The notes below the pieces were generated by a model. It made no database searches and was not told the origin of the DNA. It saw only the letters and a list, made by a program, of their open reading frames with translations. A program made the translations under genes and the position numbers. Below, one piece after another: positions 10,013-36,926 of a DNA stretch of 39,307 bases (position 1 is the first letter of the stretch; each line of letters starts with the position of its first letter). This DNA comes from Lachnospiraceae bacterium. GTDB taxonomy: Bacteria > Bacillota > Clostridia > Lachnospirales > Lachnospiraceae. The stretch spans positions 1 through 39,307 of the forward strand of contig JAFWWB010000081.1 of the NCBI GenBank assembly GCA_017518185.1, read 5' to 3'.

Positions 10013-11149
10013 TCATTTCGGTGGCAGGTCCATCTCCCCTTCTCCCGGCTCTATGGCTATGACGCAGTCCGGATGCAGACGCATGAGTATCTCCTTCATG
10101 CGCTCCTCGGCAATGGCCACACAGCCCGCCGTATCCTTTTTCTTTGAATAGCAGTGCAGAAAGATAGCTGCTCCCCTGTCCGGGGTCTGCTCCTCGTTAA
10201 AGCTTATGTTAAGGCAGTACTTATAGGATTTCGTATACTCGATGAGATGTTCGGAATCGCTCTTCAGAAAATCGGATGTCTCCAGATCCGAGACCATGCG
10301 ATTATAATAGGGCGAGTCGGAATTTCCCACCCAGTAAAGATGTTCGTTCACCTTTGTATAGCCCACGGGGCAGCCCGGATCGTCCGCTATGCCGAAGGCC
10401 ATGGTAAAGTGGAACACTCCCGAGGGTGTGGTCTTATCCCCCATGCGCCTGTTTGCCGAAAAACCGTTCTTGCCTATATAGGCGTGGGTCGCAAAGATCT
10501 GGGACCAGCTTCCGTCAGCGTTCTTTTCATAAAGTGAGAGCTCCGCGTTGGAGCCGCCTGTCCCCTTTACATATATAAACTGGCTCCTGCCTTCCAGAGC
10601 CTTCTTACCTTCAAACCAGAAGGGTTCCCGGGCAACAGTCTCCGTGGGAGCTGCCGGCTGTTCAGTAGGAGAAGGTGCTTCCGTGGGTGTTACAGCTTCC
10701 GAAGCTGCCGGCTCTTCCATGGGTAAAGGCTCTTCCGTGGGGGACGGAGCCTCCGTAGGAGTTTCCTCCGCCGCCTCCTCCGCTCCGGTCTCAGTTTCTG
10801 CTTCTTCCGGAGTATCTTCTATGCCCCCGGCAGCGCCGCTTTCCGGAGCACCGTCTTCTTCACTCTCATTCACAAGCCTGCCGGCTTCGGATGCCTGTAC
10901 TCCTTCCGCTCCGGCTATGCCTATCTCTGCTAAGGAAGATTTGCCTGACGGCAAATCTTTGAAGCGCCTCAAAGCCGGCGCGGGCTCCCCCGAGCCAAGC
11001 TCGAGGGCAGAATAGGCAGATTCCGGTATCTGCAGTTCCACCACAGGCCTTTCGGCCTCTGCTGCCGTATCCTCAGGCGCGGCGCTCTCCCCGCAGCCGC
11101 ACAGCAGTGCAAGAAGGAGGACTGCAGCAAATGCCCTGTGCTTAAGCAT
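10013..11149 (-). CDS. L,D-transpeptidase-like lipoprotein with an embedded palindromic repeat
   Basis: The frame is open to 11362, but the upstream part lies inside the next gene. The supported start is the ATG at 11147-11149, preceded by GGAGGAATAGC and giving 378 residues. It opens with a lipoprotein signal (ALLCGC, lipid-modified C19). A long linker follows, rich in Glu, Ala, Pro and Thr with PTEAPSPTEE-type repeats. The catalytic domain is C-terminal: LHCYSKKKDTAGCVAIAEE carries H332 and C343 in the pattern seen in a YkuD-related group of L,D-transpeptidases, which crosslink or modify peptidoglycan. The protein is thus probably anchored to the membrane and acts on the wall. Residues about 46-72 are encoded by a copy of the dispersed ~80-bp repeat (10934-11012), read through without frame loss. 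It is the last gene of a seven-gene same-strand run. Confidence 0.85.
   Translation of the reverse strand: MLKHRAFAAVLLLALLCGCGESAAPEDTAAEAERPVVELQIPESAYSALELGSGEPAPALRRFKDLPSGKSSLAEIGIAGAEGVQASEAGRLVNESEEDGAPESGAAGGIEDTPEEAETETGAEEAAEETPTEAPSPTEEPLPMEEPAASEAVTPTEAPSPTEQPAAPTETVAREPFWFEGKKALEGRSQFIYVKGTGGSNAELSLYEKNADGSWSQIFATHAYIGKNGFSANRRMGDKTTPSGVFHFTMAFGIADDPGCPVGYTKVNEHLYWVGNSDSPYYNRMVSDLETSDFLKSDSEHLIEYTKSYKYCLNISFNEEQTPDRGAAIFLHCYSKKKDTAGCVAIAEERMKEILMRLHPDCVIAIEPGEGEMDLPPK
10934..11012 (-). repeat. Three-hairpin palindromic repeat, copy A, inserted in frame in a coding region
   Basis: Read on the minus strand, this 79-bp copy has the family order. First is a GC hairpin (CCCTCGAGC-TTG-GCTCGGGGG, one wobble pair), then a short CTTTGA/TCAAAG hairpin, then AAGATTTGCC-GTCA-GGCAAATCTT (10-bp stem). 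It encodes the linker peptide SALELGSGEPAPALRRFKDL and continues in frame. It is nearly identical to the intergenic copies at 13.9 and 19.9 kb. Confidence 0.9.
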
Positions 11150-11150
11150 G

Positions 11151-12122
11151 CTATTCCTCCGCGAAGGGATCCGTGTATTCATCTGTAAAGTGCCACAGGC
11201 TCGAAGTATCATATATTTCCGGCAGGACCACCCACTGTCCGTCCTGCACCTCCACATACCAGGTATCCTCGTCAGAGCTGTATTCCATCCAGCCGTAATC
11301 CCCATAATCCGAGGAGATATCCTCATACCAGTACTGCCACTGATAAGGCGTCTCTTCGTCATTAAACCAGAACCAGCATTTCGTTTCGCTGTCGTACCAG
11401 TCCTCCCCGTCCAGATAACAGGTCCTTCCTATCTCTTCCACATAAACGGAATTCTTCCTTGACGCTGTCTCCGTGGTAACGGTCCGGCTTGGGCTGTCCC
11501 CGAATATGGTTATGGCCGTCCCCACCATAACGAAAAGAGCGCAGCTTCCGAAGGTCATGGCCATAAAAATGATGAGCAGGACTACGGCGATCTTTGCGCT
11601 TCTTCTGACAGAAGCCGCGCTATCCTCGCGGGCTTCGGGCTGCCTGTCCATTATGTCTATCTGGAACTGGGCCCCGCAGTTGGAACAGCATGGCAGCTCC
11701 CCTTCCTTACAGCTGTACAGCATCTGGTTCCCGCAGTAGGTACAGCTCAAAAGCAGTGTCGTTCCTGGCACAAACACGTTGCGGTAATAATTTCCCTCCT
11801 CATCGTAGTAGCCCTTCTCAAACCGGCGTCCGTCAGGTGCTGTCCAGGATACGGGATAGTAATCGTAATCATGGCTCTGCATATGATAACGGCTGACGGT
11901 CCTTCCGCCGCCGGACATATAACCTACAGGCTGATGCCTCCTCTCCCTGACACGGGGTATATGGGGCGTCCTGCTCCTTGCAGAATAGGAATAGGAGGAG
12001 TGGCTGCTGCTATGCGAAGAATGGCTCGAACTGCGGCTTCTCGATGATGAATGATGAGAAGACGAGTGGGAGCTTCTGTGTGAACTGCTGTGATGCGAGC
12101 TGCTGTGATGGCTGGGGGGCAT
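11151..12122 (-). CDS. Membrane protein with Ser/His-rich N-terminus and zinc ribbon
   Basis: The 323-residue product starts with a striking low-complexity stretch of serine, histidine and arginine (residues 1-50, runs of HHSSS). A four-cysteine zinc ribbon follows (CTYCGNQ ... CCSNCG, about 128-152), then one transmembrane helix (about 178-205, KIAVVLLIIFMAMTFGSCAL). The C-terminal domain (about 220-323) is rich in Trp, Tyr and Asp (WYDSETKCWFWFNDEE, WQYWYEDI) and is probably extracytoplasmic. No known family was recognised. AAGGAG lies upstream of the ATG. The stop codon is 1 base before the transpeptidase ATG, and its last two Glu codons form that gene's ribosome site. The His-rich tract could bind metal, but this is speculation. 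Confidence 0.8.
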   Translation of the reverse strand: MPPSHHSSSHHSSSHRSSHSSSHHSSSRSRSSSHSSHSSSHSSYSYSARSRTPHIPRVRERRHQPVGYMSGGGRTVSRYHMQSHDYDYYPVSWTAPDGRRFEKGYYDEEGNYYRNVFVPGTTLLLSCTYCGNQMLYSCKEGELPCCSNCGAQFQIDIMDRQPEAREDSAASVRRSAKIAVVLLIIFMAMTFGSCALFVMVGTAITIFGDSPSRTVTTETASRKNSVYVEEIGRTCYLDGEDWYDSETKCWFWFNDEETPYQWQYWYEDISSDYGDYGWMEYSSDEDTWYVEVQDGQWVVLPEIYDTSSLWHFTDEYTDPFAEE

Positions 12123-12140
12123 GGTCTTTTCTCCTTGTTA

Positions 12141-13916
12141 TCAGGAACCGTAATACGGCAGATCCGTTTCGTAGCTGCGGTGGAACACCCAGGTGGCGCT
12201 TCCGAACTTCACCTCGGGATCCGTCCAGACCGCGCGTATCTGAAGACGGTCATCTATAAGTGTCTCAAAATAATATGTAAATTCCCTTCCTTCCTCATCC
12301 TCCGCGACATAGGTGATCTCGGACTGGCCCTGGTCTTCGAAGGTCAGCACCTGTGTCTCTCCGTTTACGCCGCTTAAGATGATGCTTCCGTCCTCATTTA
12401 CTTCAAGGATGGTGCTTCCCTCTTCCGCATACTCCAGGTCGCCCTCCACCTCAGTGGAATAAAGATCCCACCTTCCGGTCAAATCTTCCGGCCAGGCCTT
12501 CCAGATGTTCAGGAAGGAATAGCCTATGTTCTGAAGCTCTGTGGGTACACCGGTGCTGTGGTTGCAGCGGTTGGGTGCAAATGGTATCACCCACCATTCC
12601 ATGCTGAAGGGGGCATAGGCCTCTCTCCAGCCGGTATCCGCCTCCGTGATCCTGTAGCCGATGGCAGTGCAGATAAAGGCATATTCGCCTATCACAGCGT
12701 AATCCTGGATAAAGTTCCTGTATTCATTCGGCATTCCGTATGCCTCGGGCTTGTATATGAAATCCTCATTGAGGATCTGGGCTGAAAAAGGTGATTCCCT
12801 GTAGATCAGGTCACCGTAAGAGTATTCGCTCAGATATATCTCTTCCTCTCCCGTAAAGACTCCTGCGCTTCCTCCGCCCTCCACTAGCATATAGGGAAAA
12901 CCGTCGGATAAGGCATCATAGGCATCCGCATCAAAGACCTCCATGCTGTATTCTTCCCCGGGCATCACCCGGATGGCCGCATAGGAAGCCAGAAAATGCC
13001 CTGTGCCTTCATAAAAGCCTATGAGAAGATATGCTCCGTATTCATCGCTCTCCATCTGCCGGAGCTCGGGCCAGGCCATGCTCTCATCCCCGATGGGATC
13101 GTCCACACTTCCCAGAAGAGTGATATTCCCTTCCGTATCGATGGAGACTATGTCCAGGTCGTGATCATCACTGTAGCGCATGCCCACCAGCATGTCGCCC
13201 CAGAAGCCGAAGATACTCCTCATCCTGTCGTCATCTCCGTTGACGCTGCAGAGTATGTCACCGTCCTTTACTATACTCCAGGTCTCGTCATAATTCTCAT
13301 AATCCTCCACGCCGCAGGTGCAGAGATACTGCCCGTCCTCCGAAATGGCAACCGGGCCGCCGAAGCAGTAAGCCTCCGTAGTACCCGTATCCGGAACGCA
13401 GAGCAGGGTCTGTTCGCTCTCCGGATCGTTCAGGAATATGCCCTAAGGCCCGAGAAATATCTTTCCCACGCCACCGGTCTTACATATCTCTTCGTATTCT
13501 TCGGTATTCAGGTCATAAGCGCAGATGGTGGATTCCCCTGCCCGCCATTCCGTTCCGAGAAAATCTCCGAAAGAAGCGGTATCCTCAAATGACTCCGCCG
13601 CAGACTCCCGGTAATAGACCTTATCGCCCGCGCGGACAAAATAGTCACCGTTATTCTCCACCTCGCCGTTTGCAAAGTCATCCTCAAAAGGAAGGTATTG
13701 AACTGCTGGCGTCTCCGTTGGCTCCGCCTCGGGAGCCGTAGGTTCCGGCTCTTCCGGTTCCGTCACCTCAGGCTTACCGGGCTTTTCGTCCTCCTCCGGC
13801 TCTTCCTCTTTATCCTTTTCATCCGCGTACTTACCGCGGCTTTCACCACCGTCAGCTTCCGCGCAACCTGCCAGCATTGCTGCCGCCAGGAGCAGCGCGA
13901 TCATCCTCTTTTTCAT
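12141..13916 (-). pseudogene. Lipoprotein gene split by an in-frame TAG at 13443-13445
   Basis: The frame runs from the ATG at 13914-13916 (AGAGGAAA upstream) to a TAG at 13443-13445, giving 157 residues: a lipoprotein signal (AMLAGC, C18), an acidic Pro/Glu linker, then NGDYFVRAGDKVYYRES. The same frame continues without another stop from 13442 to 12141, coding about 433 more residues. That second part starts GIFLNDPESEQTLLCVPDTG and includes ISEDGQYLC, WSIVKDGDIL and FGFWGDMLVGMRY, the strand repeats of a beta-propeller-like extracellular domain. Because no frame shift is involved, this is one ~590-residue gene with a single nonsense codon, not two genes. A GTG at 13308-13310 could start a separate cytoplasmic fragment but has no good ribosome site. 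Alternatives are readthrough or a sequence error. TAG ends the neighbouring gene normally. Confidence 0.75.
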
Positions 13917-13926
13917 ATGTTTCCTC

Positions 13927-14010
13927 TTCTGCCCCCGAGCCTCGCTCGGGGGAGCCCGCGCCGGCTTTGAGGCGCTTCAAAGATTTGCCGTTAGGCAAAT
14001 CTTCCTTTTC
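13927..14010 (+). repeat. Three-hairpin palindromic repeat, copy B
   Basis: This is a full copy between the unknown gene ending at 14022 and the split lipoprotein gene. It has stem 1 CCCCCGAGC-CTC-GCTCGGGGG, a middle CTTTGA/TCAAAG hairpin, and stem 3 AAGATTTGCC-GTTA-GGCAAATCTT. On the transcribed minus strand the copy ends in GGGGGCAGAAGAGG, which supplies the purine-rich ribosome site of the next gene. Confidence 0.9.
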
Positions 14011-14021
14011 CGGTGAAAAGA

Positions 14022-14876
14022 TCAGAACCACTGCACTGCTTCATAAATCGTGCTCCGGCGCGCAGTAGGCACCATCTTCTCAACTATCTTATCGGTCTTG
14101 CTCACCACCACAGGTACCAGCACCTTCTTATCACCGGGGAATACCTCTTCCGCGGTCTTCAGCGCATTTCCTATCATCACCGCCAGTGACATCTTGTCCG
14201 AATTCCAGGCCAGCTCCAGCACCAGATAATCCCTTACCTGGGTAAAGAGCAGTGCACCGCAGGGGATGCCGTCCTTATCAAAGCATATCTCGCTGATATC
14301 CTGCCGGTATTCCAGCCAGTCCGGGAAAAGAGGCACCGGCACAGCCCTGTCATCCTGGTTCATCAGAAGATGCAGCTCCGTCCTTTCATCCTCGGTGGTA
14401 TCAAAGAGGCAGCGGCATTCCAGACGATTCATAACTGCCTTGAAGGTCGCCCTCTGCCCCACCTCCGCCAGAGTGAACTCAAAGACGTTGCTCTTCTCTG
14501 CCCTGAGATCCATACGGGCCATTGCAACCACCTGTCTGAAATCATCGGTGATCTCGTCCTCATGGACCTCGAAAAAAGCGCCTTTCAGATTCTTTCCGTT
14601 CCGTCCCCGCTCCCTGCGGATCACATAGCGTAAAAAATCCGCCCTTCTGGAGACCTCGGCTTCCTTTTCATTTTCCAGATGCAACTGAACTATCTCCAGC
14701 CAGTTATTGTGTCTCGCCGTTGCATAAAGTCCGTAAAAGGAGCTGCTCTCACCGCAGTCGTCATAAACGGCCACTGCCCGCATCTCCCCTCTCTTTATCT
14801 GGTCACGGTAGTTCACAGGTATGATATCGCTGAATTCCATAAGGCCGCTGCCCGATATGAGTTTTTCCCTGTACAT
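14022..14876 (-). CDS. Unknown 284-residue protein, possibly GNAT-like fold
   Basis: I do not recognise this protein with confidence. It is soluble and mixed alpha/beta. Short strand-helix patterns (AVAVYDDCGESSSFYGLYATA, WLEIVQLHLENE, GAFFEVHEDEITDDFRQVV) and the phrase IPCGALLFTQVRDYLVLELAW resemble two tandem GNAT-type acetyltransferase folds without the canonical Q/RxxGxG/A motif. Its ATG overlaps the stop of the upstream 486-residue gene by one base (TAATG), with GGAAAGG upstream, so the two are coupled. A later ATG at residue 13 has no ribosome site. It sits in the same run as the kinase-like protein and probably shares its pathway. Only the context supports that. Confidence 0.7.
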   Translation of the reverse strand: MYREKLISGSGLMEFSDIIPVNYRDQIKRGEMRAVAVYDDCGESSSFYGLYATARHNNWLEIVQLHLENEKEAEVSRRADFLRYVIRRERGRNGKNLKGAFFEVHEDEITDDFRQVVAMARMDLRAEKSNVFEFTLAEVGQRATFKAVMNRLECRCLFDTTEDERTELHLLMNQDDRAVPVPLFPDWLEYRQDISEICFDKDGIPCGALLFTQVRDYLVLELAWNSDKMSLAVMIGNALKTAEEVFPGDKKVLVPVVVSKTDKIVEKMVPTARRSTIYEAVQWF

Positions 14877-16336
14877 TACGCCCGCCTTTCCGCCATGGCT
14901 GCTTTGATGGCTTCTCTGGAATCCTTTTCCACATCGGAATAGTGCATGAACTCAAGCTCCTCCCTAAGGTCGTTTAAGGTATCCCCGACAGTGGCCCTCT
15001 CATGATCTGCAGAGAACTCCGCCACCCTGTAACCTACCCTGCACATGGCATCCGCCATCACGAATATGCGGAATAACCCCTCCTGCTCCTCTACGCCAAG
15101 TCCTTCCATCCGGCCTTCCGCAAAAGCCCGGTCTATGGCGTAGCGGAGTTTCTTTGCAAGCGCAAGAGTCTTCATGAGCCCTTCCGTCCCCGTGGCTATG
15201 CCCTTAAGCGTCTGGGCGTCAAACAGCCAGGGTTTGGTGTAGAGGAAGGCCCGCAGCTCTTCCCCGGCGCTGCGGAATTCCTCCACGGTCGTAAGGCTTC
15301 TTTCCTCTTCTTCCTCTTCATTCTCATCCTGCAGATGAACAAAGCCCGGGATCTCACTGAAAGTCATGCCCTCATCCAGGGTGTCCGGGGTGACTCCCCA
15401 TTCCGGCCACATCTTCTCTGCCAGTATGCCGTCGGTCTTCTCTCCCGCCAGCACCCATTTCGCGCAGGCAAGGCAGGCCTCCTCCACATAGAGCAGATCA
15501 CTGACATTCCGGGCCACCCGGCTGGAATATTCCGAAAAAGCAAGCGACATCAAGTACTTCCTTACCGGATCCGTAGCCGGGTCAAAGTACTCGTTGATCA
15601 CCAGCTCCCTCAGCATTTCAAGGCTTTTTGACCTCTCGGCCATCTCCTTCCGGGATCTCATGCTGACCGTATAAATACTCTTTATGATCTTCTGCTTTTC
15701 CGTATCGATCTCCCCGAAGCCCGCAAGGAACTCTGCCAGTTCCGGCGACTCGCCGATATCACCGGCTTCCATGCGTTCTTCTATGCCGGCCTTCTCCTTT
15801 AGATCCTTCATAATGCCTTCTCCGAGGCTGCGGTTTATCCTTTCAGCTTCTGCCTCATATCGTATACAGCTGTTTACCCAGGAATCCCTGGCAGAGGCTC
15901 TGAGCTTCAGGTCATTATGGAGCTCCCCTTTCTCGTCCACTCCGGATGCAGCCAGATAATCCGCCACCGCCTGTTTCATCTCATCCAGGTACTCCGACAT
16001 TCCTTCTGTAAAAGAAGCTAAAGCAGCCGATGCCTCGGACCTGCCGGCTATGATATCCTCTATCCGGTCTCTTGCGTACATGACGGCTGCTACGGAATCG
16101 GCAAAAGCCTGCTTTCCGACAGGGGTCGGGGGCTTCTCCCTGAACTCCTTTCCCGTAAGCAGGGGCATCTCTCCCTTTTCTTTCAGGGCTTCATAGCGTG
16201 AAAGCACCTCGGCCGCCATATCCTGGTTCACATAGTTATCCTTATAGCCTTCCCTTACCGCGCAAGAGGCAAGATAGTATTTCTGTTTTTTCCAGTACAG
16301 GTCGCCCTTCTCCCTGAGGGTCATTTCTTCTGCCAT
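14876..16336 (-). CDS. Unknown mainly helical protein, 486 residues
   Basis: The frame extends to 16378, but the first 14 codons come from the repeat remnant. The ATG at 16334-16336, with GGGAG 7 bases upstream, is the likely start. The product is soluble and almost entirely helical and charged, with no signal peptide or membrane segment. The N-terminal part has a TPR-like feel (EKGDLYWKKQKYYLASCAVREGYKD), and a Glu-rich loop (NEEEEEERSL) lies near residue 350. No catalytic motif was identified. It is flanked by the PI3/4-kinase-like gene upstream and by the coupled 284-residue gene downstream. It could be an adaptor, a substrate or an effector partner of the kinase-like protein. This is inference from operon position only. 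Confidence 0.72.
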   Translation of the reverse strand: MAEEMTLREKGDLYWKKQKYYLASCAVREGYKDNYVNQDMAAEVLSRYEALKEKGEMPLLTGKEFREKPPTPVGKQAFADSVAAVMYARDRIEDIIAGRSEASAALASFTEGMSEYLDEMKQAVADYLAASGVDEKGELHNDLKLRASARDSWVNSCIRYEAEAERINRSLGEGIMKDLKEKAGIEERMEAGDIGESPELAEFLAGFGEIDTEKQKIIKSIYTVSMRSRKEMAERSKSLEMLRELVINEYFDPATDPVRKYLMSLAFSEYSSRVARNVSDLLYVEEACLACAKWVLAGEKTDGILAEKMWPEWGVTPDTLDEGMTFSEIPGFVHLQDENEEEEEERSLTTVEEFRSAGEELRAFLYTKPWLFDAQTLKGIATGTEGLMKTLALAKKLRYAIDRAFAEGRMEGLGVEEQEGLFRIFVMADAMCRVGYRVAEFSADHERATVGDTLNDLREELEFMHYSDVEKDSREAIKAAMAERRA

Positions 16337-16346
16337 TTTATGCTCC

Positions 16347-16384
16347 CTTTTCTGCCCCAAAGATTTGCCGTTAGGCAAATTTTA
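16347..16384 (+). repeat. Three-hairpin palindromic repeat, remnant copy C
   Basis: Only the leading TTTTCTGCCCC and stem 3 (AGATTTGCC-GTTA-GGCAAAT) remain; stem 1 and the middle hairpin are absent. It fills most of the 56-base gap between the kinase-like gene and the next gene, and again donates a purine-rich ribosome site on the minus strand. Confidence 0.8.
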
Positions 16385-16392
16385 CGTCATCA

Positions 16393-19300
16393 TTACACCG
16401 CGACCCTCTCGGCCATGCGCACGATCATATCGCAGTCCATCATCAGCTTCTTGTTCGGCGATTCAGCCCCTGCGTCTTCCCGGCTGACCTCCGCTTTTCT
16501 TTTTCTTGCGGCATCGTTTTTTGCCCTCTGGGTCCGGGCTGCGTCTACGGAGTTCCTTATCATCTCCAGAGCCTTCGTGAGCAGGCCCGAGAACGTTGTC
16601 TGCCCGGCAAGATCAGCGGAACCGGATTCCAGCTTGCTCTTAAGCTTCGCCAGCTCTGCTTCAGGGACCAGCTCATCCAGCTGTGCCGCTTTTGCCGTAA
16701 GTATCGTGGTACCGGATGCATGGACGATATCCATCAGGTCGCATTCATCCCCGGATACAGCATCGGTGGTCACAACCTGCACCATACGCTTCACCAGATC
16801 CCTGTGCTTCTGCTCCTCCACCTCGGAACGGTACTCGATCTTATCCAGCTCCATCAGCCGCTCCGATATCGATACCAGATCATCCTGCTTGGGCGCCATG
16901 GAAGCCTTGACCCTCTGGTTCTGGACATTTCCGTAACCTTCGTTGCGTCTTATCTCCGTGGAAACATCGTCATTTGAGGATATGGACAGAGCCCTCAGTG
17001 CAGCCACGTAATTCTTCACGGCAATGCCTTCCGCAGCCTCTCTCCTCGCATCTGCCAGCAGCGCTTCCAGATACGCATTGGATTCGCCCTTATTCTTATC
17101 CTTCCAGTCCTGAACGTCCTTTTCCAGTATTTTGACGGTCATGAGGACCGCGTCATACTGCGCCGTTACGCTTCCCAGGGAACTGAAGGCGCTTATATCG
17201 TTCTTTATCTGCTGTAAATATGGAGTAAAACTCTCTACCAGGCTTTTATGCTCCCTCATGACGGGACCGGCCCAGTCCCCGGGTGATCCGTCAGGTCCGA
17301 TACCGTCACACTTCATTTTCCCGTATTCTGTCACCACCGGATCAAGATAATACGTGGACAGATAATTCATTGCCATCCTGCGTCTCAGGTTCTCATTCAT
17401 CACCTCTTCCGTGGCAATGCCGTCGGGTACACTACCAGCAGGGAAGAGCAGGTACACTCTGGGCTGCTTATTTGCGTATTTCAGTGCGCAGTCCATGGTA
17501 GTGGTGTCAATGAGGTTTTTCAGATCCTTCTCCTTTGTGGGAGATTCAGGCTTATCCTTATACTTTTTAGCATTCTTAAGTCTGATCGAGCCGTCCCAGT
17601 CATTTCCGCTGCTGCCTACCTCGGTCTTTTTTTCCCTGTATACGCTCAGAACGGTATCAAAATATATGCCGTTGTACTTGCTGTAGCTCTGATCTCCTCT
17701 GGATGCCCACTGTTCGGCGATCTTTGCGGCATTTTTTTCCAGCAGCGCGATACCCCCGTCGAGAGCATCCCTGACCAGGCCGGCGTTATCTTTCACCTTT
17801 TTCTTCTCTGCATCGGTCAGAAGCTGGTAGCTGGCCACAGTCTCTACCGGTGACTTCTGGTAATAGAGTATACGAGGATCCGGGACGTCGGAGGTGATGA
17901 TATTTCGCGTGACGATCCTGCTCTCCTTACAGACCGTATCCATCACACCGGTATCGGAGAGGATCCTTTCCTTTACCCAGCTCTTCTGTTCCGCAGAGAG
18001 CCTCAGTTCATCCTGCGTATCAGCCACGGTGTTCGCAGGTGCCTGCTGCGGTGCTGCGGGCTGCTGTTGCTGCTGCTGCTGCACGGCGATGGGTGTGAAG
18101 GTATAAAGCTCCTCCCCGTTTTCTTGACGCAGCTTCCCGGTCACGTAGACCTGGTCAAAAGCCGCCAACGCGGCCCGGTCCCTGGAATCCACAATCTTCT
18201 GCCGGCGTTCCCGGATAAGCTTCGCAAAAAATACCTCATACTCATGCCTCAGGCCCGTCTTTCTCTGAAGTATCTTATCATACACTTCCCTGTATTTCTT
18301 ATTAGGCTTACCCTTCTTGTCCGTTTCAGGCCCGTACTGCGTCTTGAGCATTGTCCGGAAATTGCCCATGTACTCATCTTCGCTCATTTTTTCAACAATT
18401 TCTATCTGCTTAAGGACCACATCGAAATTCAGATCCTGGACCCTGTCCCCCGTGATGGGACCTTCCACAAAACGGGTGAACAGGACATTGTATATGGTAT
18501 CGTTCTTGTGAAGTACTTCCGTATGGCTCATATGTTCGGCGCGCTTATCGTCGATATGGGAAAAGGATGCCTCCTTGTCTATGGAGACCAGCGAACCGTC
18601 CTGCTGCTGCAGGAAGTTTTCCCCCTTCGTATCGAAGTTGCAGAGCAGCCAGTCCAGAGCATGCTCCCTGAGGACCTGGTTTGCCACATACTGTGACATT
18701 GGCTCCTTCGGATCTGCCTGCCAGGAAAAAAGATCGATGTCAGGGTCACCCTTGGTCTGTACCTTTTCCTGGAAGGTTCCTATGGCTACGCCGTCACGGT
18801 TCCTGGCAATATAGGCCTTCACGCAGTTATTATCCCCGCAGAGGGCTCTCTGCAGGCGGGAAGCTGCCACCGTGACCTCTGCACGGGCCGGCTTCTGTGC
18901 GCCGAGGCAGGTCACTGCCTCTTTATACAGATACTCCTTTTTGCTGCCGTCCTTTTTCTTCTCCTCAAAAAGGTACATGGGCTTCGTTCCGCCGAAGGTC
19001 ATCCTTCCCCTGTTGACCATAAGTTCACCGCTGTCAGGATGGACATAAGCCTTGTCCTCACAGGAAAGGGATTCATCCGGACTGCCGAAGAGACTCCTCA
19101 CCTTCTCATATAAGCTGTGCCACTTACGTGTGGAATTGCCCCTGGAATACTCCTCATTCTTTCCTGCCTCCTTAAGCTCCAGCAGATCCTTCTTCTGTTT
19201 TAAGTCTCTCAGCTGGATGACCATCTTTTCCTTATTTTTTCGCTCACTGCTGCGTACCTTGCTGTCCATGGGGAGCAGGGAAGAAAAGGCATCCTCCGCG

Positions 19301-19875
19301 TCTATCCGCTCCTTCATGGCAGCTATCTGAACCTCCAGCTTTTTCATATACTGTCCGGAGGATAGTTCCTTAAGGGCAGCCGTTTCCCCTGCATCGATGG
19401 CTTCCAGCTTTGCGTTCAGAAGGGCCCGCTCTTTTTGGTAATCTGCCGTGGTCATGCGGTAATCACCGCGCTCCAGCATGCCTATCACCCTGGCGGTCCT
19501 GACCCGTAGCAGATCGTTCTCCATCTTCATGGCCTTTTTCTGAAGGGCGATGGCCTTTTTCTGATGCTTTGTAAGGGCAGGCGGCTCATGCATGGTCGCT
19601 TCATCGGACTGCTCGATGGCAACTGCCGGTACCCCCAGCTCCATGGCAGTGGCAGCCTGGGTAGAAGCGAGGCTCCTGCCCATAAACTTATCAAACAGAG
19701 TGCCCGAAGATATCTGCGTGCTCCTCAGCCAGGCCTGCTCGTTGCCCTTTACTGCCTGCATCTCCGCACCGTAACGGGTGAGGAAGATGTCGTTGGTCCT
19801 GAACAGTGCATCCGCTGTTTCGGCGTCCAGGACCTTCTTTCTGTTTAATTGTTCCATTCCGAAATCATCAGACAT
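16393..19875 (-). CDS. Large protein with PI3/4-kinase-like core and poly-Gln linker
   Basis: The start is the ATG at 19873-19875 after GGGGGGAAAAGTT; the 29 codons upstream belong to the repeat. The product has 1160 residues and no signal peptide. Residues about 100-245 are coiled-coil-like. Residues about 290-440 look like an atypical kinase: FGGTKP (294-299) as nucleotide loop, K318 in YLYKEA, E333 in a following helix, then LDWLLCNFDTKGENFL (D415, N420) and SIDKEASF (D433). The D-x4-N and ID spacing matches type II phosphatidylinositol 4-kinases and relatives (HipA, PI3K), where it forms the catalytic loop and metal site. The Arg usual after the catalytic Asp is replaced by Thr. A Gln/Pro/Ala linker (about 595-615) leads to a long helical C-terminal half. 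Substrate (lipid, protein or nucleotide) is unknown. It heads an operon-like run with two unknown proteins. Confidence 0.75.
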   Translation of the reverse strand: MSDDFGMEQLNRKKVLDAETADALFRTNDIFLTRYGAEMQAVKGNEQAWLRSTQISSGTLFDKFMGRSLASTQAATAMELGVPAVAIEQSDEATMHEPPALTKHQKKAIALQKKAMKMENDLLRVRTARVIGMLERGDYRMTTADYQKERALLNAKLEAIDAGETAALKELSSGQYMKKLEVQIAAMKERIDAEDAFSSLLPMDSKVRSSERKNKEKMVIQLRDLKQKKDLLELKEAGKNEEYSRGNSTRKWHSLYEKVRSLFGSPDESLSCEDKAYVHPDSGELMVNRGRMTFGGTKPMYLFEEKKKDGSKKEYLYKEAVTCLGAQKPARAEVTVAASRLQRALCGDNNCVKAYIARNRDGVAIGTFQEKVQTKGDPDIDLFSWQADPKEPMSQYVANQVLREHALDWLLCNFDTKGENFLQQQDGSLVSIDKEASFSHIDDKRAEHMSHTEVLHKNDTIYNVLFTRFVEGPITGDRVQDLNFDVVLKQIEIVEKMSEDEYMGNFRTMLKTQYGPETDKKGKPNKKYREVYDKILQRKTGLRHEYEVFFAKLIRERRQKIVDSRDRAALAAFDQVYVTGKLRQENGEELYTFTPIAVQQQQQQQPAAPQQAPANTVADTQDELRLSAEQKSWVKERILSDTGVMDTVCKESRIVTRNIITSDVPDPRILYYQKSPVETVASYQLLTDAEKKKVKDNAGLVRDALDGGIALLEKNAAKIAEQWASRGDQSYSKYNGIYFDTVLSVYREKKTEVGSSGNDWDGSIRLKNAKKYKDKPESPTKEKDLKNLIDTTTMDCALKYANKQPRVYLLFPAGSVPDGIATEEVMNENLRRRMAMNYLSTYYLDPVVTEYGKMKCDGIGPDGSPGDWAGPVMREHKSLVESFTPYLQQIKNDISAFSSLGSVTAQYDAVLMTVKILEKDVQDWKDKNKGESNAYLEALLADARREAAEGIAVKNYVAALRALSISSNDDVSTEIRRNEGYGNVQNQRVKASMAPKQDDLVSISERLMELDKIEYRSEVEEQKHRDLVKRMVQVVTTDAVSGDECDLMDIVHASGTTILTAKAAQLDELVPEAELAKLKSKLESGSADLAGQTTFSGLLTKALEMIRNSVDAARTQRAKNDAARKRKAEVSREDAGAESPNKKLMMDCDMIVRMAERVAV

Positions 19876-19888
19876 AACTTTTCCCCCC

Positions 19889-19969
19889 TTTTCTGCCCCC
19901 GAGCTTCGCTCGGGGGAGCCCGCGCCGGCTTTGAGGCGCTTCAAAGATTTGCCATTAGGCAAATCTTCC
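19889..19969 (+). repeat. Three-hairpin palindromic repeat, copy D, flanked by a 14-bp direct repeat
   Basis: This is a full copy: stem 1 CCCCCGAGC-TTC-GCTCGGGGG, a middle CTTTGA/TCAAAG hairpin, and stem 3 AAGATTTGCC-ATTA-GGCAAATCTT. CCTTTTCTGCCCCC occurs at 19887-19900 and again at 19968-19981, bracketing the unit. This could be a target duplication or a remnant of a tandem unit. Confidence 0.9.
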
Positions 19970-19983
19970 TTTTCTGCCCCCCT

Positions 19984-20394
19984 TTACGGCCGGTCCCAGG
20001 CGGCAAGATAATAATCCCCGTTTTCATCATCACTCCTGTGTTCCACCACCCATTCCGGGCGGTTTGAGAAGAACTGATAAAGGTCATCCTCCTCGCTTTC
20101 CGGACATAAGATGGCGATCAGCACTATATACATCCTTTCCGAAGACAGCTCCGCCTTATCCACCAGCATCCCGGCTATCCCCTTACGCCTGGCGGAATCT
20201 GCCACTGCCAGGTGGGTGATCATACAGAAGCTCTCCGCCACATGCATCAGCATTATGCCGCAGGCCTTGTTGTCATCATCCACCGCTCCCACCGCCACTG
20301 TGTCCGGATCGTTCATAAGATCCGCCAGTGCCGTCTTCGTGAGCAGCGGCTTAAATGCGGGTATCAGATTTTCAGTTACCTGTATAAGATCCAT
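19984..20394 (-). CDS. GNAT family N-acetyltransferase
   Basis: The 136-residue protein carries the acetyl-CoA binding motif A of GNAT enzymes: a strand (CMITHLAVADS), then RRKGIAGMLVDKAE (the R/Q-x-x-G-x-G/A turn and helix). The usual N-terminal strands come before it (VAVGAVDDDNKACGIMLMHV). Such enzymes transfer acetyl groups to amines of small molecules or proteins. The acceptor here is unknown. AGGAGG is placed 6 bases before the ATG. The gene lies only 18 bases downstream of the strong terminator of the GGDEF gene, so its own promoter must overlap that region or it relies on readthrough. It is the first gene of the run leading into the kinase-like protein. Confidence 0.82.
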   Translation of the reverse strand: MDLIQVTENLIPAFKPLLTKTALADLMNDPDTVAVGAVDDDNKACGIMLMHVAESFCMITHLAVADSARRKGIAGMLVDKAELSSERMYIVLIAILCPESEEDDLYQFFSNRPEWVVEHRSDDENGDYYLAAWDRP

Positions 20395-20412
20395 GCTGTC
20401 CTCCTGTTCCCC

Positions 20413-20436
20413 AAAAAAAGCCCGGGAACCCCGGGC
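20413..20436 (-). terminator. Rho-independent terminator of the GGDEF gene
   Basis: On the minus strand GCCCGGG-GTT-CCCGGGC (7-bp perfect stem) is followed by TTTTTTT, 18 bases after the GGDEF stop codon. Confidence 0.88.
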
Positions 20437-20454
20437 GGGCTTTGCTTGCCCTGT

Positions 20455-21906
20455 TTACAGCGACTTCATCCTTTTTTTGCAGATATACATCTCATTGTCG
20501 GCGCGTTTGAAAACATCCGCCACGTTCTTATCCAGTTCCGTATCGAAGACGGCGTAGCCTATGGCCGCGGAGATCTGCTGCCAGGGGCTGAGCCTGTCAT
20601 TGAAGCGGATATTCTCTGTTTCCTTCTCAAATTCTTCGATCAGCTTCTCGATATTCTTAAGGTCGTTATCCCTTATGATGACCACGAACTCGTCGCCGCC
20701 GTAGCGGAACACGGGGGAGTGCTTGAACACGCCGCAGATGTTCTCACTGAGCATCTTTATAGAGATATCACCCATCTCATGTCCGTATTTGTCATTGATG
20801 CGCTTTAAATTGTTAAGGTCGGACACTACTATGCCGAAATCCCTAAAGCCCCCGGCTATCGCTTCATCTATCTTTTCCGCCTCAAAATCATAAGCTCTCT
20901 TATTCCTTATGCCGGTAAGGGCATCCATGTTGGCGATCTCGTTTATACGCATCGCCTGCTCCCTTGTGGCCTGTATCTCCTGCTCCGCTCCCAGAAGGTT
21001 GGTATAGTATTCGTTGAAATCGTTCTCCATCTGCTTCATCGAGTCAGCCAGATCCCCTATCTCGTCGTTATTCCTTATCTGAAGCGCAGCAAAGCCGTGG
21101 CGTATGTTGCTCTTTTCCTCCCGGCAGTACTTCTTGGCTGCTTCGGAAAGCTCTCTTAAGGGCCTCACCGCGAACTTCTCCACCAGCACATACCCCAGTA
21201 TGCTTATAAGGATGGTGAGTACCAGCATTATGCCGCCGCAGAGCAGCACATAGGACCTCTGGTCGGCTCTTATGTCCTCCATGTCTATATCCACCATGGC
21301 GTAGCAGATGACCCTGCCTGCCCTGTCACGGACGGGCGCTCCTGCGGTTACCAGCCAGCCGTAATCCTCGGTATCGGTTATATATGCGGGAAAGCCCCTT
21401 TCGGGATCGGTGAGCAGATCATAGTTGATCTCATAAAGAGGATCGAAACAGCCCGGAGGACAGGGTTCCTCGGGATCCGCATCCACCAGATAGATGACTG
21501 TACGGCTTTCCGCATCAACTGTCGCAAGATAGAGACAGTTCACGCTGTTAAGCTCCTGTATCATGCGGAGATTATCCCTTATGGTCAGAAAATCGGGATC
21601 CTTCTCAAAATCGGAAAAGCGGGCTATATAGCTGTTGAAATCCGTGGTGCCCCACTCCTCACTGCTTATACGGTCATCGGGATCGATGCTGTGATAACGC
21701 TCCAGAACGGCATCATTAAGGCGCCTTGCCGGCTCCTTGATCGTTACCGCTGCCACCGTCGCTGCAAGTTCGTCTGCCTGCTTCATGTAATCACGGTCTA
21801 CAAGGTTATTGATGATGGTGCTCGTGACGCTGAGCATGACTCCGCTGAGGAACAGCGCAAATATGACTATGACGATTATGGATTTGACCCGAAGCGATAT
21901 ACGCAT
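20455..21906 (-). CDS. Membrane-bound diguanylate cyclase (extracellular sensor, HAMP, GGDEF)
   Basis: The start is the ATG at 21904-21906 after GGGAGGGAAT; an in-frame ATG 39 bases earlier lies next to the -10 element. The 483-residue protein has a first transmembrane helix (about 8-28) and an extracellular sensor domain of about 190 residues resembling Cache domains (YITDTEDYGWLVTAGAPVRD, then VICYAMVDIDMEDI). A second helix follows (about 220-245), then a HAMP-like linker (RPLRELSEAAKKY), a short coiled coil and a C-terminal GGDEF domain. The signature RYGGDEFVVI (GGDEF at 403-407) is intact, so cyclic di-GMP synthesis is expected. The RxxD inhibitory site five residues before it is missing, so product feedback at that site is unlikely. 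It has its own promoter and terminator, hence is probably monocistronic. Confidence 0.93.
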   Translation of the reverse strand: MRISLRVKSIIVIVIFALFLSGVMLSVTSTIINNLVDRDYMKQADELAATVAAVTIKEPARRLNDAVLERYHSIDPDDRISSEEWGTTDFNSYIARFSDFEKDPDFLTIRDNLRMIQELNSVNCLYLATVDAESRTVIYLVDADPEEPCPPGCFDPLYEINYDLLTDPERGFPAYITDTEDYGWLVTAGAPVRDRAGRVICYAMVDIDMEDIRADQRSYVLLCGGIMLVLTILISILGYVLVEKFAVRPLRELSEAAKKYCREEKSNIRHGFAALQIRNNDEIGDLADSMKQMENDFNEYYTNLLGAEQEIQATREQAMRINEIANMDALTGIRNKRAYDFEAEKIDEAIAGGFRDFGIVVSDLNNLKRINDKYGHEMGDISIKMLSENICGVFKHSPVFRYGGDEFVVIIRDNDLKNIEKLIEEFEKETENIRFNDRLSPWQQISAAIGYAVFDTELDKNVADVFKRADNEMYICKKRMKSL

Positions 21907-30490: not shown

Positions 30491-30496
30491 TTACCG

Positions 30497-33400: not shown

Positions 33401-35125
33401 ATATATGCTGGCAGGGCTGACATTTACCTTCTCCCATTCCGCGTCCCAGAGGGGATCGTTTTCGACTCCCGCATCATTTTTGATCTCATCCTTAGTCTTT
33501 GACCCGGAATAGTATACCTTTTCTATACGCACATCTTCTGCAAAAGCCCTCTCACCTATGATACCGGTATTCAGGGAAAGCGTTACTTCCTTCAGCATCG
33601 TGCAGCCTGCAAAACAGCCTGCGGGGATATCCGTCACCGTATCGGGTATTATGATCCCGGTCAGGGAGCTGCAGCCGTTGAAGGCGTTTGTGCCGAGCTT
33701 CCGGGTCTGCCCCGGGATCGCAACGGAGGAAAGATTTTTACAGCCAGAGAATGCGTAAGTACCTATTGTCTTTACACTGTCCGGTATCGTTACTGTCTTC
33801 AGGGAAGCTGCATCTGCAAATACTTTATCCGGAACCAGAACACTTCCCTCTTCAAAACCGGCGGTCACAAGGCTTGTACAGCCGTAGAATATCGAATAAC
33901 CTCCGATACCTCCTATCTCCTTCTTTATCCTGGCGGGGATGATGATATCATTAAGCTTTATGCATTCACTGAAAGCATTCTCTCCGATATACAGCTCACC
34001 GGTACCCTTTTCGAAGGTCACCGTTTTCAGCACTCCGCACCCCGAAAAAGCCACACGGTCCAGCGTTGTCACCGATCCGGGTATGCTTATGCTGCTGACA
34101 GCCGTATTGCTGAAAGCAGCTGAGCCTATGGTCGTGAGCCCCTCCGGCAGCAATACACCGGAAAGGTTACTGCAGTTCAGGAACGCATAATTGCCGATCT
34201 CCAGGACGCTGTCAGGGACCGTCACGTTCTTCAGGGCAGCTGCTTCCGCAAACACATTTGCCGGTACATAGGTGATACCGTCTTCAAAACCTGCAGTCAC
34301 AAGGCTTGTACAGCCGTAGAATATCGAATAACCTCCGGTACCCCTGAGATCCTTCTCCGTTCTGGCAGGAAGAACGATATTGTTAAGCTTCTTACAGTTT
34401 CTGAAGGCATTCTCACCGATATACAGTCCCCCGTCTGCAGCTGTTGCCTCTTCAAAGGTCAGGCTCTCAAGCGCTGTACAATCCGAAAAGCACCTGTCTC
34501 CTATCCGAGTGATACTGTGTCCTATCTCTACAGACTTCAGGGACGGGATATTTGAAAACACGCCGTTGTTCAGGATATGGACATTCGAAGAAAAGCGGAT
34601 CTTCGTTATCGCATAGTCCTTTAACGAAGACTCATTGTACTTCACGTCGACATCGGTTCCGGTGCCTTCTACGACAAGGACCAGATCCTCGCCGTCTTCG
34701 TAAATATATGCGGTCACGCCGGTGCCGAGCTCACCCTCTGCGATATAATCTGTAGCTTTATCCGCCCCGGCTTCTTCCGCACCGGCATCCTCAGCTGCAG
34801 GAGCAGCTTCAGACCCTTTTGCTTCTCCGGTCTCAGTATCCTCAGAAGCTTCTTCTGCAGTCTCTTCCTCTGCTCCGGATGCTTCATTTTCTGCAGCAGC
34901 TTCAAAGCTCTCATTTCCCGCAGCAGCTTCAAGGCTCTCATTCTCCGCTGCCTCTTCAGCAGCTTCCTCCTCTTCCTCATTCAAAAGCCCTGCTCCGGAT
35001 CTTTCTTCAGCTCCGGTTTCCATGGAAGCTCCCCCTTCGGCAGCCAGCACCGGCAGAGTCTCCGTTCCCAGCATCACCACGCTGAGGCCCAGAGCCAGCA
35101 TGCGTCTTATCTTTCCCGCTTTCAT
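30497..35125 (-). CDS. BspA-type LRR surface protein with papain-like cysteine peptidase domain and Ig repeats
   Basis: The 1542-residue product has a signal peptide (to about residue 28), an acidic linker (about 30-125), and BspA/LRR_5 leucine-rich repeats (about 165-560, units such as IPDSVKTIGTYAFSGCKNLS). Two blocks around GGYSIFYGCTSLVTAGFE are near-identical, about 140 residues apart, marking internal duplication. A cysteine-peptidase-like domain follows (about 585-830): GGSCYGMS (C626), AGHAVLAYD (H735) and VYDSNWP (N759), the order and context of a papain/C39 triad. Residues 905-934 are five GRCRLR units. The rest is Ig-like, with YTG/YSG-type repeats (GKGDYAGKSGTVSFNI). AAGGAGAGG precedes the ATG. 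It ends 6 bases from the convergent HD-GYP stop. Likely a secreted adhesin-protease; peptidase activity is inferred. Confidence 0.87.
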   Translation of the reverse strand: MKAGKIRRMLALGLSVVMLGTETLPVLAAEGGASMETGAEERSGAGLLNEEEEEAAEEAAENESLEAAAGNESFEAAAENEASGAEEETAEEASEDTETGEAKGSEAAPAAEDAGAEEAGADKATDYIAEGELGTGVTAYIYEDGEDLVLVVEGTGTDVDVKYNESSLKDYAITKIRFSSNVHILNNGVFSNIPSLKSVEIGHSITRIGDRCFSDCTALESLTFEEATAADGGLYIGENAFRNCKKLNNIVLPARTEKDLRGTGGYSIFYGCTSLVTAGFEDGITYVPANVFAEAAALKNVTVPDSVLEIGNYAFLNCSNLSGVLLPEGLTTIGSAAFSNTAVSSISIPGSVTTLDRVAFSGCGVLKTVTFEKGTGELYIGENAFSECIKLNDIIIPARIKKEIGGIGGYSIFYGCTSLVTAGFEEGSVLVPDKVFADAASLKTVTIPDSVKTIGTYAFSGCKNLSSVAIPGQTRKLGTNAFNGCSSLTGIIIPDTVTDIPAGCFAGCTMLKEVTLSLNTGIIGERAFAEDVRIEKVYYSGSKTKDEIKNDAGVENDPLWDAEWEKVNVSPASIYNYSFINDFGAYGLGYDEKREYHIPEERYVALFGEKGHNIFSVFDDVWGGSCYGMSSTSALFNEDKSVKPSDYKKGAESVPELVLEKEVDYDPSDDTASELKTDLRKFIEAMQISQCDDRVQYCISLDCYPEEVIAELQASDKPVLLGLYGNMPDGSPAGHAVLAYDIREAASFNGYIADVYDSNWPEEKRSISFMKKTYNAGAEDPYEYYTWSYRLNSAAAAAAMIWGSDPLIEGYEDCALSYVPYEVYSAVWSDGGSYDAAEWADRLAANEEWSDIDEFIYVNFHDWDDYAQSLYEQDPDAVELTAEEEEQIRAYMEDPSKTLSPELQGRCRLRGRCRLRGRCRLRGRCRLRGRCRLRCTPVRVESDNYSISDGDNELITVKNGAAASSDADAFARPVVNYIPGRSYKAEYNPVYTPGGIRHIQSGGKDGLSFTAIDGELKLEADTDAKEAAFDICEEDNLYYLSIPLKKNGQLTATLTDVDAGGEEKVITISGNGTGEEVLISVSDNGVTVDGLEDESISLNGEPSSVEELEGKVKRETVERELVPGIWLTGMYDSYDYTGVKLKPDFRVVDRRGKKEKLMAAGVDYTPVYGANKKGSGTVSIKGKGDYAGKSGTVSFNIAEPVVPGNAADLKGAKISAIDPLTYSGAECRPAKIVLKLKGEKKPTEYLLDETDGRYKDKNGNVIPAAITFGNNVNKGSAVVVLSGKNGSVAKKTFRIVPADILSVETEGIGEVSWEVKPFSEEPELVMAGGRTLVAGQDYKLKYSVKDGQGTLLISGKGNLKGKRTSLFDVIPMDVDPDNIIVSAVNGGKASRVKVKVLDAAGNALSSKYYRISLSTVSGNEIKPGDIIKDETIVVSVTGTDKSAGLAVFGNDCRIEVKVGDKDIAGLVKAGSSEVEYPGRKVLPEDLDAGYFVTGLVLEKDFEVTACSRNAGKGTMTVYLKGTGEYCGSTPVKIRIKAASLEK
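32324..32413 (-). repeat. Five tandem 18-bp units encoding GRCRLR
   Basis: In the reading frame of the surface protein each unit is Gly-Arg-Cys-Arg-Leu-Arg. The units differ at codon positions GGC/GGG, CGC/AGG/AGA, AGG/AGA/CGG, CTA/CTC/CTT and CGT/CGC, and every difference is synonymous. In the other two forward frames the same differences change amino acids. This points to selection for the hexapeptide after duplication. Confidence 0.93.
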
Positions 35126-35236: not shown

Positions 35237-35281
35237 CTTTATTGTTTTTTTCCTTCCCGTGAAATTTTTCAAAAAAAGGTA

Positions 35282-35310: not shown

Positions 35311-35326
35311 AAAGGCACAACAGAGA

Positions 35327-35345
35327 TATAATCAATTTGATATTA
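35327..35345. promoter_or_regulatory. Second, imperfect operator-like palindrome in the leader
   Basis: TATAATCA-ATT-TGATATTA matches the first site at its core (ATCA-NTT-TGAT), with 6 of 8 arm pairs. Its centre is 39 bases downstream of the first, just after the predicted start of transcription. Two similar sites suggest cooperative binding by one regulator. Confidence 0.5.
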
Positions 35346-35362
35346 TGATAGGAGGTGATCAT

Positions 35363-35944: not shown

Positions 35945-35951
35945 GCGTTAA

Positions 35952-35965
35952 GGTACCGCGGTACC
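35952..35965. repeat. Perfect 14-bp palindrome before the VWA gene
   Basis: GGTACCGCGGTACC lies 8 bases after the upstream stop and just before the ribosome site of the VWA gene. It could form only a short hairpin, and its role is unknown. Confidence 0.4.
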
Positions 35966-35980
35966 GGAAAGGAGGAACAT

Positions 35981-36847
35981 ATGGGATGCGGAATATGGAG
36001 AGAAGATACTTTCAGAGCGTATTCGACAAGGATGGGACGTACCGTGAGCAAGAGCGGCAGCCTGGCGGGAGATATGAGCAATCAGCAGATGTTCACCGCA
36101 AGGAACATCGATCCGGCTCTGGATCCGAAGGATGTGTTCAGGGAGTGCTGCGATAACGAAGAACACCCTGCCACCATACCGGTGATCCTGGCCCTGGATG
36201 TCACCGGTTCCATGGGACAGGCCGCCGTAGAGGTTGCAAAGCAGCTGAACGTCATAATGACCGGCCTTTACAAAAAGCTTAAGGACGTGGAATTCATGGT
36301 AATGGGCATAGGCGATCTGGCCTACGACAGATGCCCCTTGCAGGTGACCCAGTTCGAATCGGACATACGTATCGCCGAGCAGCTTGACAAGCTCTATTTC
36401 GAATTCGGAGGCGGAGGAAATTCTTATGAATCCTACACCGCGGCATGGTACTTCGCAACAGAGCACTGCCGTCTGGATGCCTGGAAGCGCGGGCAGAAGG
36501 GCATCATCATAACCATGGGTGACGAAGGCATAAATCCCTATCTGCCCGGAAAACGGCTCGGTGAGATCACCGGAAGACCCGTCAGCGGGGATGTTGAAAC
36601 GGATGCTCTCTACAGGGCTGTGCAGGAAAAGTACGAGGTCTATCACCTGTTCGTAAGGCACGGGAACAGCAGGGATGAAGGCTATATCCGTACCTGGAAG
36701 GATTTCATGGATGAAGAGCACTTCAAAATAACCGATATACAGGGGATCGCGGATACCATCATCCGCATCGTGACCGGCAGGGCTGAAGAAAATGTACGTT
36801 TTGAATGCAGCGGGAACCTGGCCCTTGCCCCCGAGATCAGCTGGTAA
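35981..36847 (+). CDS. VWA (von Willebrand factor A) domain protein
   Basis: The 288-residue cytoplasmic protein (no signal peptide) has AAAGGAGG before the ATG. A VWA fold begins about residue 65: IPVILALDVTGSMGQAAVEV gives the MIDAS motif as DVTGSMG, close to DxSxS with Thr at the middle position. Later MIDAS-side elements are GGGGNSYES (about 146-154) and ITMGDEGIN (about 185). Such domains bind a divalent metal and through it a protein partner. They often work with AAA+ or other enzymes, but none is in this operon. The N-terminal 60 residues (MGCGIWREDTFRAYSTRMGR) may be a tail that contacts the partner. The gene sits between the acidic-tailed unknown gene and, across a three-hairpin repeat, the PurA-like gene. 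Confidence 0.87.
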   Translation: MGCGIWREDTFRAYSTRMGRTVSKSGSLAGDMSNQQMFTARNIDPALDPKDVFRECCDNEEHPATIPVILALDVTGSMGQAAVEVAKQLNVIMTGLYKKLKDVEFMVMGIGDLAYDRCPLQVTQFESDIRIAEQLDKLYFEFGGGGNSYESYTAAWYFATEHCRLDAWKRGQKGIIITMGDEGINPYLPGKRLGEITGRPVSGDVETDALYRAVQEKYEVYHLFVRHGNSRDEGYIRTWKDFMDEEHFKITDIQGIADTIIRIVTGRAEENVRFECSGNLALAPEISW

Positions 36848-36926
36848 TTCTGCCCCCCGGCAATGCCGGGGGGAGCCCGCGCCGGCTTAGAGGCGCTTCA
36901 GAGATCTGCCGCCAGGCAGATCTTCA
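36848..36926 (+). repeat. Three-hairpin palindromic repeat, diverged copy E with compensatory stem changes
   Basis: Stem 1 is CCCCCCGGC-AAT-GCCGGGGGG and stem 3 is GATCTGCC-GCCA-GGCAGATC. Compared with copies B and D, two base pairs of stem 1 (G-C to C-G, A-T to G-C) and one of stem 3 (T-A to C-G) are changed on both sides, keeping the pairing. It starts 1 base after the VWA stop and ends before the ribosome site of the PurA-like gene. Confidence 0.9.

Follow-up and report, generated by a model that had tools for sequence, protein, structure and literature searches.

The 39,307-nt stretch of DNA analysed here (contig JAFWWB010000081.1 of assembly GCA_017518185.1, from a Lachnospiraceae bacterium; hereafter the window) contains four near-complete copies (A, B, D, and E) and one remnant (C) of an 81-bp unit with three hairpins, which is probably a non-autonomous mobile palindromic element. 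The unit reads TTCTGCC, hairpin 1, AGCC, hairpin 2 with the loop GGCTTTGA, TTCA, hairpin 3, and CTTCCTT. Copies are dispersed, arranged in tandem, and present inside genes, and at the one characterised site the filled and the empty state differ by exactly 81 bp. The covariation of the stems, the empty sites, and a bias towards one reading frame are firm, and the site of entry is partly supported.

The characterised site lies in a gene of the same genome encoding a protein with thiamine pyrophosphate (TPP)-enzyme, pyruvate-oxidoreductase, and ferredoxin domains (Pfam), which we take to be an indolepyruvate ferredoxin oxidoreductase. Exactly 81 bp are missing from all nine aligned orthologues, the closest among those fetched. 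On the hairpin strand, CTTCCTT ends both the left flank and the element at this site, so that the position of the cuts is ambiguous by 7 nt. Another host gene (L008), encoding a flavin adenine dinucleotide (FAD)-dependent oxidoreductase, has much diverged orthologues, and the empty state was seen at the protein level, with split matches that skip about 28-30 residues at the insert (e.g., in G001 and G007). The corresponding gap contains no copy E in any of seven aligned relatives, while an eighth relative could not be mapped by the script. Comparison of positions 12100-20600 of the window, which span copies B to D, with seven relatives gave short matches only, in three out of seven.

Analysis of the stems showed that their changes are compensatory. 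Compared with the mean of its own dinucleotide shuffles, each full copy folds better (z -2.5 to -4.7, on both strands). Between copies B and E there are three double changes, two of them in stem 1 and the third in stem 3, all of which preserve pairing in the alignment, as the original prediction from the window had stated. A first alignment of 30 copies (29 distinct) from three genomes of the genus had 97.9% of cells paired over the three helices, both-side changes at 10 out of 23 pairs, and 52 double-change cells as compared to 12.0 in shuffles; the observed value was reached by none of 500 shuffles on four out of five measures and by eight of them on the fifth. A second alignment comprised 39 copies from other genomes, none of which were in the first; its columns were set on the first row, the copies had already been inspected, and the counts cover hairpins 1 and 2 because the register shifts in hairpin 3. 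Pairing was retained in 91.3% of its cells (87.2% in hairpin 1 and 98.5% in hairpin 2), double changes occurred at 13 out of 14 pairs (98 such cells vs 25.8 in shuffles), and the covariation score was 0.520 vs 0.188 in shuffles; the pair-type count, one of the five measures, was reached by 43 out of 500 shuffles. Hairpin 2 is GCGCC/GGCGC. The CTTTGA/TCAAAG stem proposed earlier in its place was rejected, having a double change at none of its six pairs and being broken in copy E. Across genomes the hairpin 2 stem reads GCGCC, GTCGC, GTCCC, GCCCC, CTCCGC, CTTCGC, or is a four-base stem, with the complement always matching, and the linkers AGCC and TTCA on its two sides, as well as the loop GGCTTTGA, are nearly invariant. 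Selection on the fold is likely, with the reservation that covariation alone is no proof of it.

Some variants of the fold were also observed. All full copies contain the arrangements AGCC-L-GGCT and TTGA-L'-TCAA, in which L and L' are complementary, and these could form two small hairpins with pairing loops, an alternative that covariation cannot tell apart from hairpin 2. Sorted by eye, one or two types of hairpin 3 dominate some genomes, and G045 holds several. Long forms of 120-132 nt with extra hairpins in the hairpin 2 loop are present in L170 (3364-3495), L171 (973-1104), L185 (118-249), L187 (1004-1132), L221 (3932-4061), and L222 (253-372), those in L170 and L171 keeping the frame with 44 codons.

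The genomic context was analysed at 104 places, which are picked matches of the covariance model; a tandem pair counts as one place, and the duplicate contigs C11 and C102 of G018 were counted once. Weak or partial matches (e.g., copy C, L017, L022, L034, L075, L083, L087, and L184) and several matches in L170, L176, L181, L204, L206, and L222 fall outside this set. A total of 28 places lie inside called genes and 76 outside, 10 of the latter overlapping a gene partly. The genes were called by a simple codon-usage caller that is blind to genes frameshifted by the element, and the in-gene counts therefore show tolerance rather than target choice. The in-gene share was 22 out of 56 in the genus of the window, 6 out of 14 in genome G101, and 0 out of 34 in G343, G229, and G334 taken together (Fisher 2.4e-6); units are mostly 81 nt long in the genus and in G101, and mostly 75-82 nt in the other three genomes. 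Most in-gene copies (25 out of 28) are antisense and in frame 0, adding a peptide close to KEDLPDGKSLKRLKAGAGSPEPSSGAE. The 81 nt correspond to 27 codons, and antisense frame 0 is usually open. Since each of the three frames is open in most of 53 units of 81 nt (48, 48, and 43 out of 53), openness alone does not explain the bias towards one frame (p 1.2e-9 against a crude expectation of one third).

The in-gene slices measure 81 nt (23 slices), 132 nt (2), 162 nt, 60 nt, and 82 nt, the last being, by its empty site, an exact 81-bp insertion. The pair L045 and L172 is one site in two species, and some inserts are positioned close to the protein end. The 26 host proteins scanned are unrelated to each other; 21 have a Pfam family and five have none, and the hosts include a beta-ketoacyl-acyl carrier protein (ACP) synthase III, a tetrapyrrole methylase, a CapD-like protein, an Orn/Lys/Arg decarboxylase, RuvX, and ATP-binding cassette (ABC) transporters. 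In the AlphaFold model of the TPP-enzyme host (mean predicted local distance difference test score, pLDDT, 80.9), four segments have pLDDT < 50 and the insert (residues 420-446) is among them, although the absence of these residues from the other alignment rows lowers the confidence there by itself. Judged from the sequences, the element appears often to enter ordinary enzyme genes without breaking them, adding 27 amino acids.

The genome of the window contains 24 blastn matches and 23 covariance-model matches, part of them partial, and the top score is common to five full copies. With this genome counted, the covariance model found the element in 6 out of 35 genomes of the genus and in 9 out of 299 genomes sampled from the family. 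Five out of 392 genomes sampled from the order had matches, all five belonging to the same family and one being weak. Carriers in other genera have at least 11 to 15 scored places per genome. The original prediction had pointed to a covariance-model search for further copies and to empty sites in relatives as checks on mobility, and both the copies and the empty sites were found. A degenerate pattern recovered 48 stretches in 17 assemblies (by accession prefix), labelled mostly as Lachnospiraceae; eight assemblies name a host gut in the title, in all cases that of a ruminant. A phage or plasmid vehicle was rejected, as the exact pattern had no match in viral contigs and a two-unit query had none in plasmids and phages.

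Within the window, copy A (10932..11012, minus strand; 106 bits with the covariance model, and alignment) is a full 81-bp unit with hairpin 1 at 10987-11007, hairpin 2 at 10964-10981, and hairpin 3 at 10937-10958. It had been taken for intergenic, and was found to lie in frame, read in the sense direction, within a minus-strand open reading frame (ORF; 10013-11149) with a YkuD (L,D-transpeptidase) domain (Pfam). Copy B (13927..14007, plus strand; 108 bits, and fold) occupies the gap between two minus-strand genes, with hairpins 1 to 3 at 13932-13952, 13958-13975, and 13981-14002. Copy D (19891..19971, plus strand; 108 bits, and fold) is also located between minus-strand genes, with hairpins at 19896-19916, 19922-19939, and 19945-19966. 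Copy E (36848..36928, plus strand; 99 bits, and the gap in relatives) has its hairpins at 36853-36873, 36879-36896, and 36902-36923; it begins right after the stop codon of the gene at 36044-36847 and ends 18 nt upstream of the start (36947) of an adenylosuccinate-synthetase-like gene. Copy C (16345..16383, plus strand; alignment and a 26-nt blastn match) is a remnant that lacks hairpins 1 and 2, its left end being fused to hairpin 3 (16358-16383), and the covariance model gave no match to it. The three-hairpin order attributed to five copies thus holds for A, B, D, and E. The claim that intergenic copies occur only between co-directional genes is true of B, D, and E and does not apply generally, because the 104 places include 14 convergent and 4 divergent gaps. 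As to neighbouring genes, the Pfam-less gene and the adenylosuccinate-synthetase-like gene at 36044-38101 are paired in eight relatives too. A lipoprotein-like start at 12141-13310 is followed by an ORF on the same strand at 13443-13916, and the two may be a single gene with a frameshift. Positions 33846-34001 and 34278-34433 form a direct repeat of 156 nt with 80% identity, within an ORF of 1542 residues.

The flanks of the copies give partial information on the insertion target. From 148 distinct cores, 131 were retained after the removal of look-alikes on the reverse strand and of rows in which no hairpin was clear, and 129 of these have a readable right end; hairpin 1 is misplaced in a few rows (e.g., L021, L028, and L117). 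When five rows with a tandem neighbour were removed, the four bases to the left of the unit favoured C, C, T, and T in 69, 68, 59, and 74 of the remaining 124 rows. Four identical copies have the left flanks CAAT, CCTT, CATT, and CCAT with an unchanged right end, which speaks against target duplication. One of the nine empty orthologues of the TPP-enzyme host (L251) reads AAGGAAGG at the insertion place and the other eight differ, the site being a coding one; the AAGG that adjoins the element end may belong to the target. In the gaps of B, C, and D, the ribosome site of the next gene, which the original prediction had assigned to the element end, may accordingly come from either the element or the target. 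Taken together, this suggests that the element enters on the 3' side of a tetranucleotide resembling CCTT, read on the strand that carries hairpins 1 to 3 in this order. The right end of the element itself reads CCTT, and insertion of a further copy at the CCTT that terminates an existing one would explain the tandem units, which have a period of 81 in two arrays of the genome of the window. Entry at a CCTT-like site would also explain the lack of a clear target duplication; to our knowledge, the IS200/IS605 family of insertion sequences (IS) makes none. Moreover, such a site has AAGG, the Shine-Dalgarno core, on the other strand, which would explain the position of antisense copies in co-directional gaps, 16 out of 30 of which sit 5-30 nt from the next start, as compared to 3 out of 17 sense copies. 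A weaker suggestion is that an enzyme acting in trans recognises the hairpins on single-stranded DNA, as in IS200/IS605 and in repetitive extragenic palindromic (REP) sequences.

Several observations weigh against a mobile element of this kind. Coding orthologues in filled and empty state at the DNA level are available for only one site, and a 74-bp core with a 7-bp duplication fits that site too. The left flank equals the right end in 17 out of 119 non-tandem copies, against 9.8 expected, an excess reached by 2 out of 2000 shuffles, which tends to favour some duplication, or remnants of tandem copies. The full CCTT stands to the left of the unit in only 27 out of 124 rows. At two sites common to two congeners, the element differs at 2 out of 162 bases and the flanks at 199 out of 1865 (p 7e-6); these sites are conserved in place, and some copies are old and constrained. 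The genome of the window, listed as 99.77% complete, has no match to Y1_Tnp, and among the carriers such matches were found in 4 out of 12, with 7 others lacking them. The element model had no match in ten Y1-bearing loci of carriers, and no autonomous, longer form with a gene was seen in the fetched loci. A gene-bearing form enlarged in the hairpin 2 loop was rejected as a candidate, since the one recurrent enlargement in these loci is a loop of 59 nt where the usual one has 8 nt, and other spacings resemble chance matches. Ten genes adjoining copies in the genome of the window are ordinary ones, including polysaccharide genes, recA, recX, RNase Y, and fliF; one of these copies (L014, 1695-1775) is positioned at the recA/recX junction.

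A Y1 transposase as the mobiliser, which had been suggested together with a REP-associated tyrosine transposase (RAYT), is hence unsupported, being absent from the genome of the window and patchy among carriers, with Y1 loci devoid of the element. It is nevertheless conceivable, if rather doubtful, that the unit derives from REP/REPIN or IS200/IS605 in the strict sense and owes its movement to a Y1 transposase whose gene the assemblies do not contain. Hairpins close to both ends, a preferred tetranucleotide at the left flank and at the right end, and the Y1 genes of the four carriers are in line with this, and multi-copy IS genes can go missing from draft genomes. However, the Y1-free carriers include G007, G229, and G310, listed as about 100% complete, in addition to the nearly complete genome of the window, and neither a GTAG foot nor an element match in the Y1 loci was found.

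The covariation itself permits other explanations. In five copies from three genomes (L014 and L016 in the genome of the window, L095 and L220 in G343, and L136), the hairpin 2 loop GGCTTTGA is replaced by GGCTCCCC, the exact complement of the upstream GGGGAGCC, as would be expected if template switching had recurred in a quasi-palindrome. The process is argued to create compensatory stem changes as well, according to the accessible portions of PMC8794818. A possible, if somewhat unlikely, account is thus that the element is mobile and its compensatory changes stem mostly from DNA template switching between palindrome arms, with pairing as a mutational by-product; it leaves unexplained why AGCC, GGCTTTGA, and TTCA are near-fixed while the stems vary across genomes. 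The proposal that the hairpins are selected is accordingly plausible in view of the strong covariation and the two conserved shared sites, with the qualification that template switching could give part of the pattern. At an apparent third shared site, in two named assemblies (L118 and L147), the left flanks are 84% identical over 223 bp and hairpin 3 is different; it looks as if hairpin 3 can be exchanged by the swapping of an arm.

It is improbable that the unit is a conserved cis-acting RNA (an attenuator, a terminator, or an mRNA stabiliser) whose hairpins are selected at the RNA level for a role in gene regulation. The strong covariation in both alignments, the low divergence at the two shared sites, and the proximity of antisense copies to the next start would suit such a role. 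So would the excess of G-T over A-C pairs (26 vs 6, p 5e-4) among the eight innermost pairs of hairpins 1 and 3 on the hairpins 1 to 3 strand, a count with equal scoring that is modest evidence because the copies are related. However, the excess falls to 44 vs 28 over whole stems, and hairpin 2 has no G-T and two A-C pairs. Copies face both ways relative to transcription and occur inside genes, which bears out the view that the unit is unlike a fixed attenuator, and orthologous genes and gaps lack it. No Rfam family fits: the window had no match at the gathering threshold, and the fetched copies gave only three weak matches at a permissive threshold, all under the gathering scores. The use of one frame by 25 out of 28 in-gene copies might also reflect a repeated protein motif that is selected as a 27-residue peptide and spreads with genes. 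With 76 out of 104 places outside called genes and host proteins that are unrelated, this is highly improbable.

As a mobile palindrome, the element resembles several known families but is not classed with any of them. Like the Rickettsia palindromic elements (RPEs), which in the accessible text of PMC10969869 and PMC3733652 are short palindromic repeats that contribute a peptide to unrelated genes by in-frame insertion and also stand outside genes in many copies, it combines in-gene and intergenic copies. Rickettsia is the case named there for in-frame colonisation of genes by palindromes at high frequency (PMC10969869), and the ending given for the R. conorii repeats is CGTC (PMC3733652). 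By this description the present element is set apart, since its ends read TTCTG and CTTCCTT and CGTC occurs only within the loop of hairpin 3; it also resides in other bacteria, its unit of 81 nt comprises three hairpins, and its long forms measure about 120-132 nt. With REP/REPIN sequences it shares numerous dispersed hairpin repeats, tandem arrangement, and some copies in genes (PMC3733652, in part). As far as the available text of PMC3733652 and PMC6006769 describes them, REPs are hairpins of 20-40 bp (PMC3733652) or 21-65 nt (PMC6006769) whose foot bears a GTAG-type tetranucleotide and which often have a RAYT gene in the vicinity. In contrast, GTAG and GTGG are absent from both strands of the consensus of 30 aligned copies, and neither RAYT nor Y1 was found in the genome of the window. 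The subterminal hairpins (1 and 3) and the preferred tetranucleotide of the left flank, similar to that of the right end, recall IS200/IS605 as outlined in parts of PMC6006769. However, this genome has no Y1 gene, and with CCTT to the left of only 27 out of 124 units the guide tetranucleotide is a candidate.

Unlike those of classical (DDE-type) miniature inverted-repeat transposable elements (MITEs), the termini TTCTGCC and CTTCCTT are not mutual inverted repeats. PARCEL, in the portion of PMC2996958 available, is likewise a palindromic, perhaps mobile DNA encoding a short peptide; it forms tandem 25-residue domains within ORFs, whereas the present element is mostly outside called genes. Since the CGTC end, the GTAG foot with RAYT, the Y1 gene, and inverted termini are all lacking, we do not class it as a member of the RPE, REP, IS200/IS605, or classical MITE families. 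The REP/MITE-type mobile palindrome originally envisaged thus stands as regards mobility, given the empty sites and the dispersed and tandem copies, and fails as regards the GTAG foot, RAYT, and inverted termini. No description of such an element in Lachnospiraceae was found in the open-licence papers searched.

A more far-reaching picture, unlikely to be right in every part and offered tentatively, is of a family of gut Lachnospiraceae defined by its fold, in which the stems turn over between genera while the three hairpins and the short linkers stay. Its members would move as small single-stranded units into CCTT-like sites by means of an enzyme other than Y1, and their length would be fixed at 27 codons in genes. 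Because carriers occur in several genera, one empty site differs by exactly 81 bp, and the host enzymes have known folds, two questions can now be tested: how a palindrome moves without an obvious transposase, and how proteins tolerate a sudden insert of 27 residues. The element is also a clean case in which selection on the fold may be separated from template-switch repair of palindromes.

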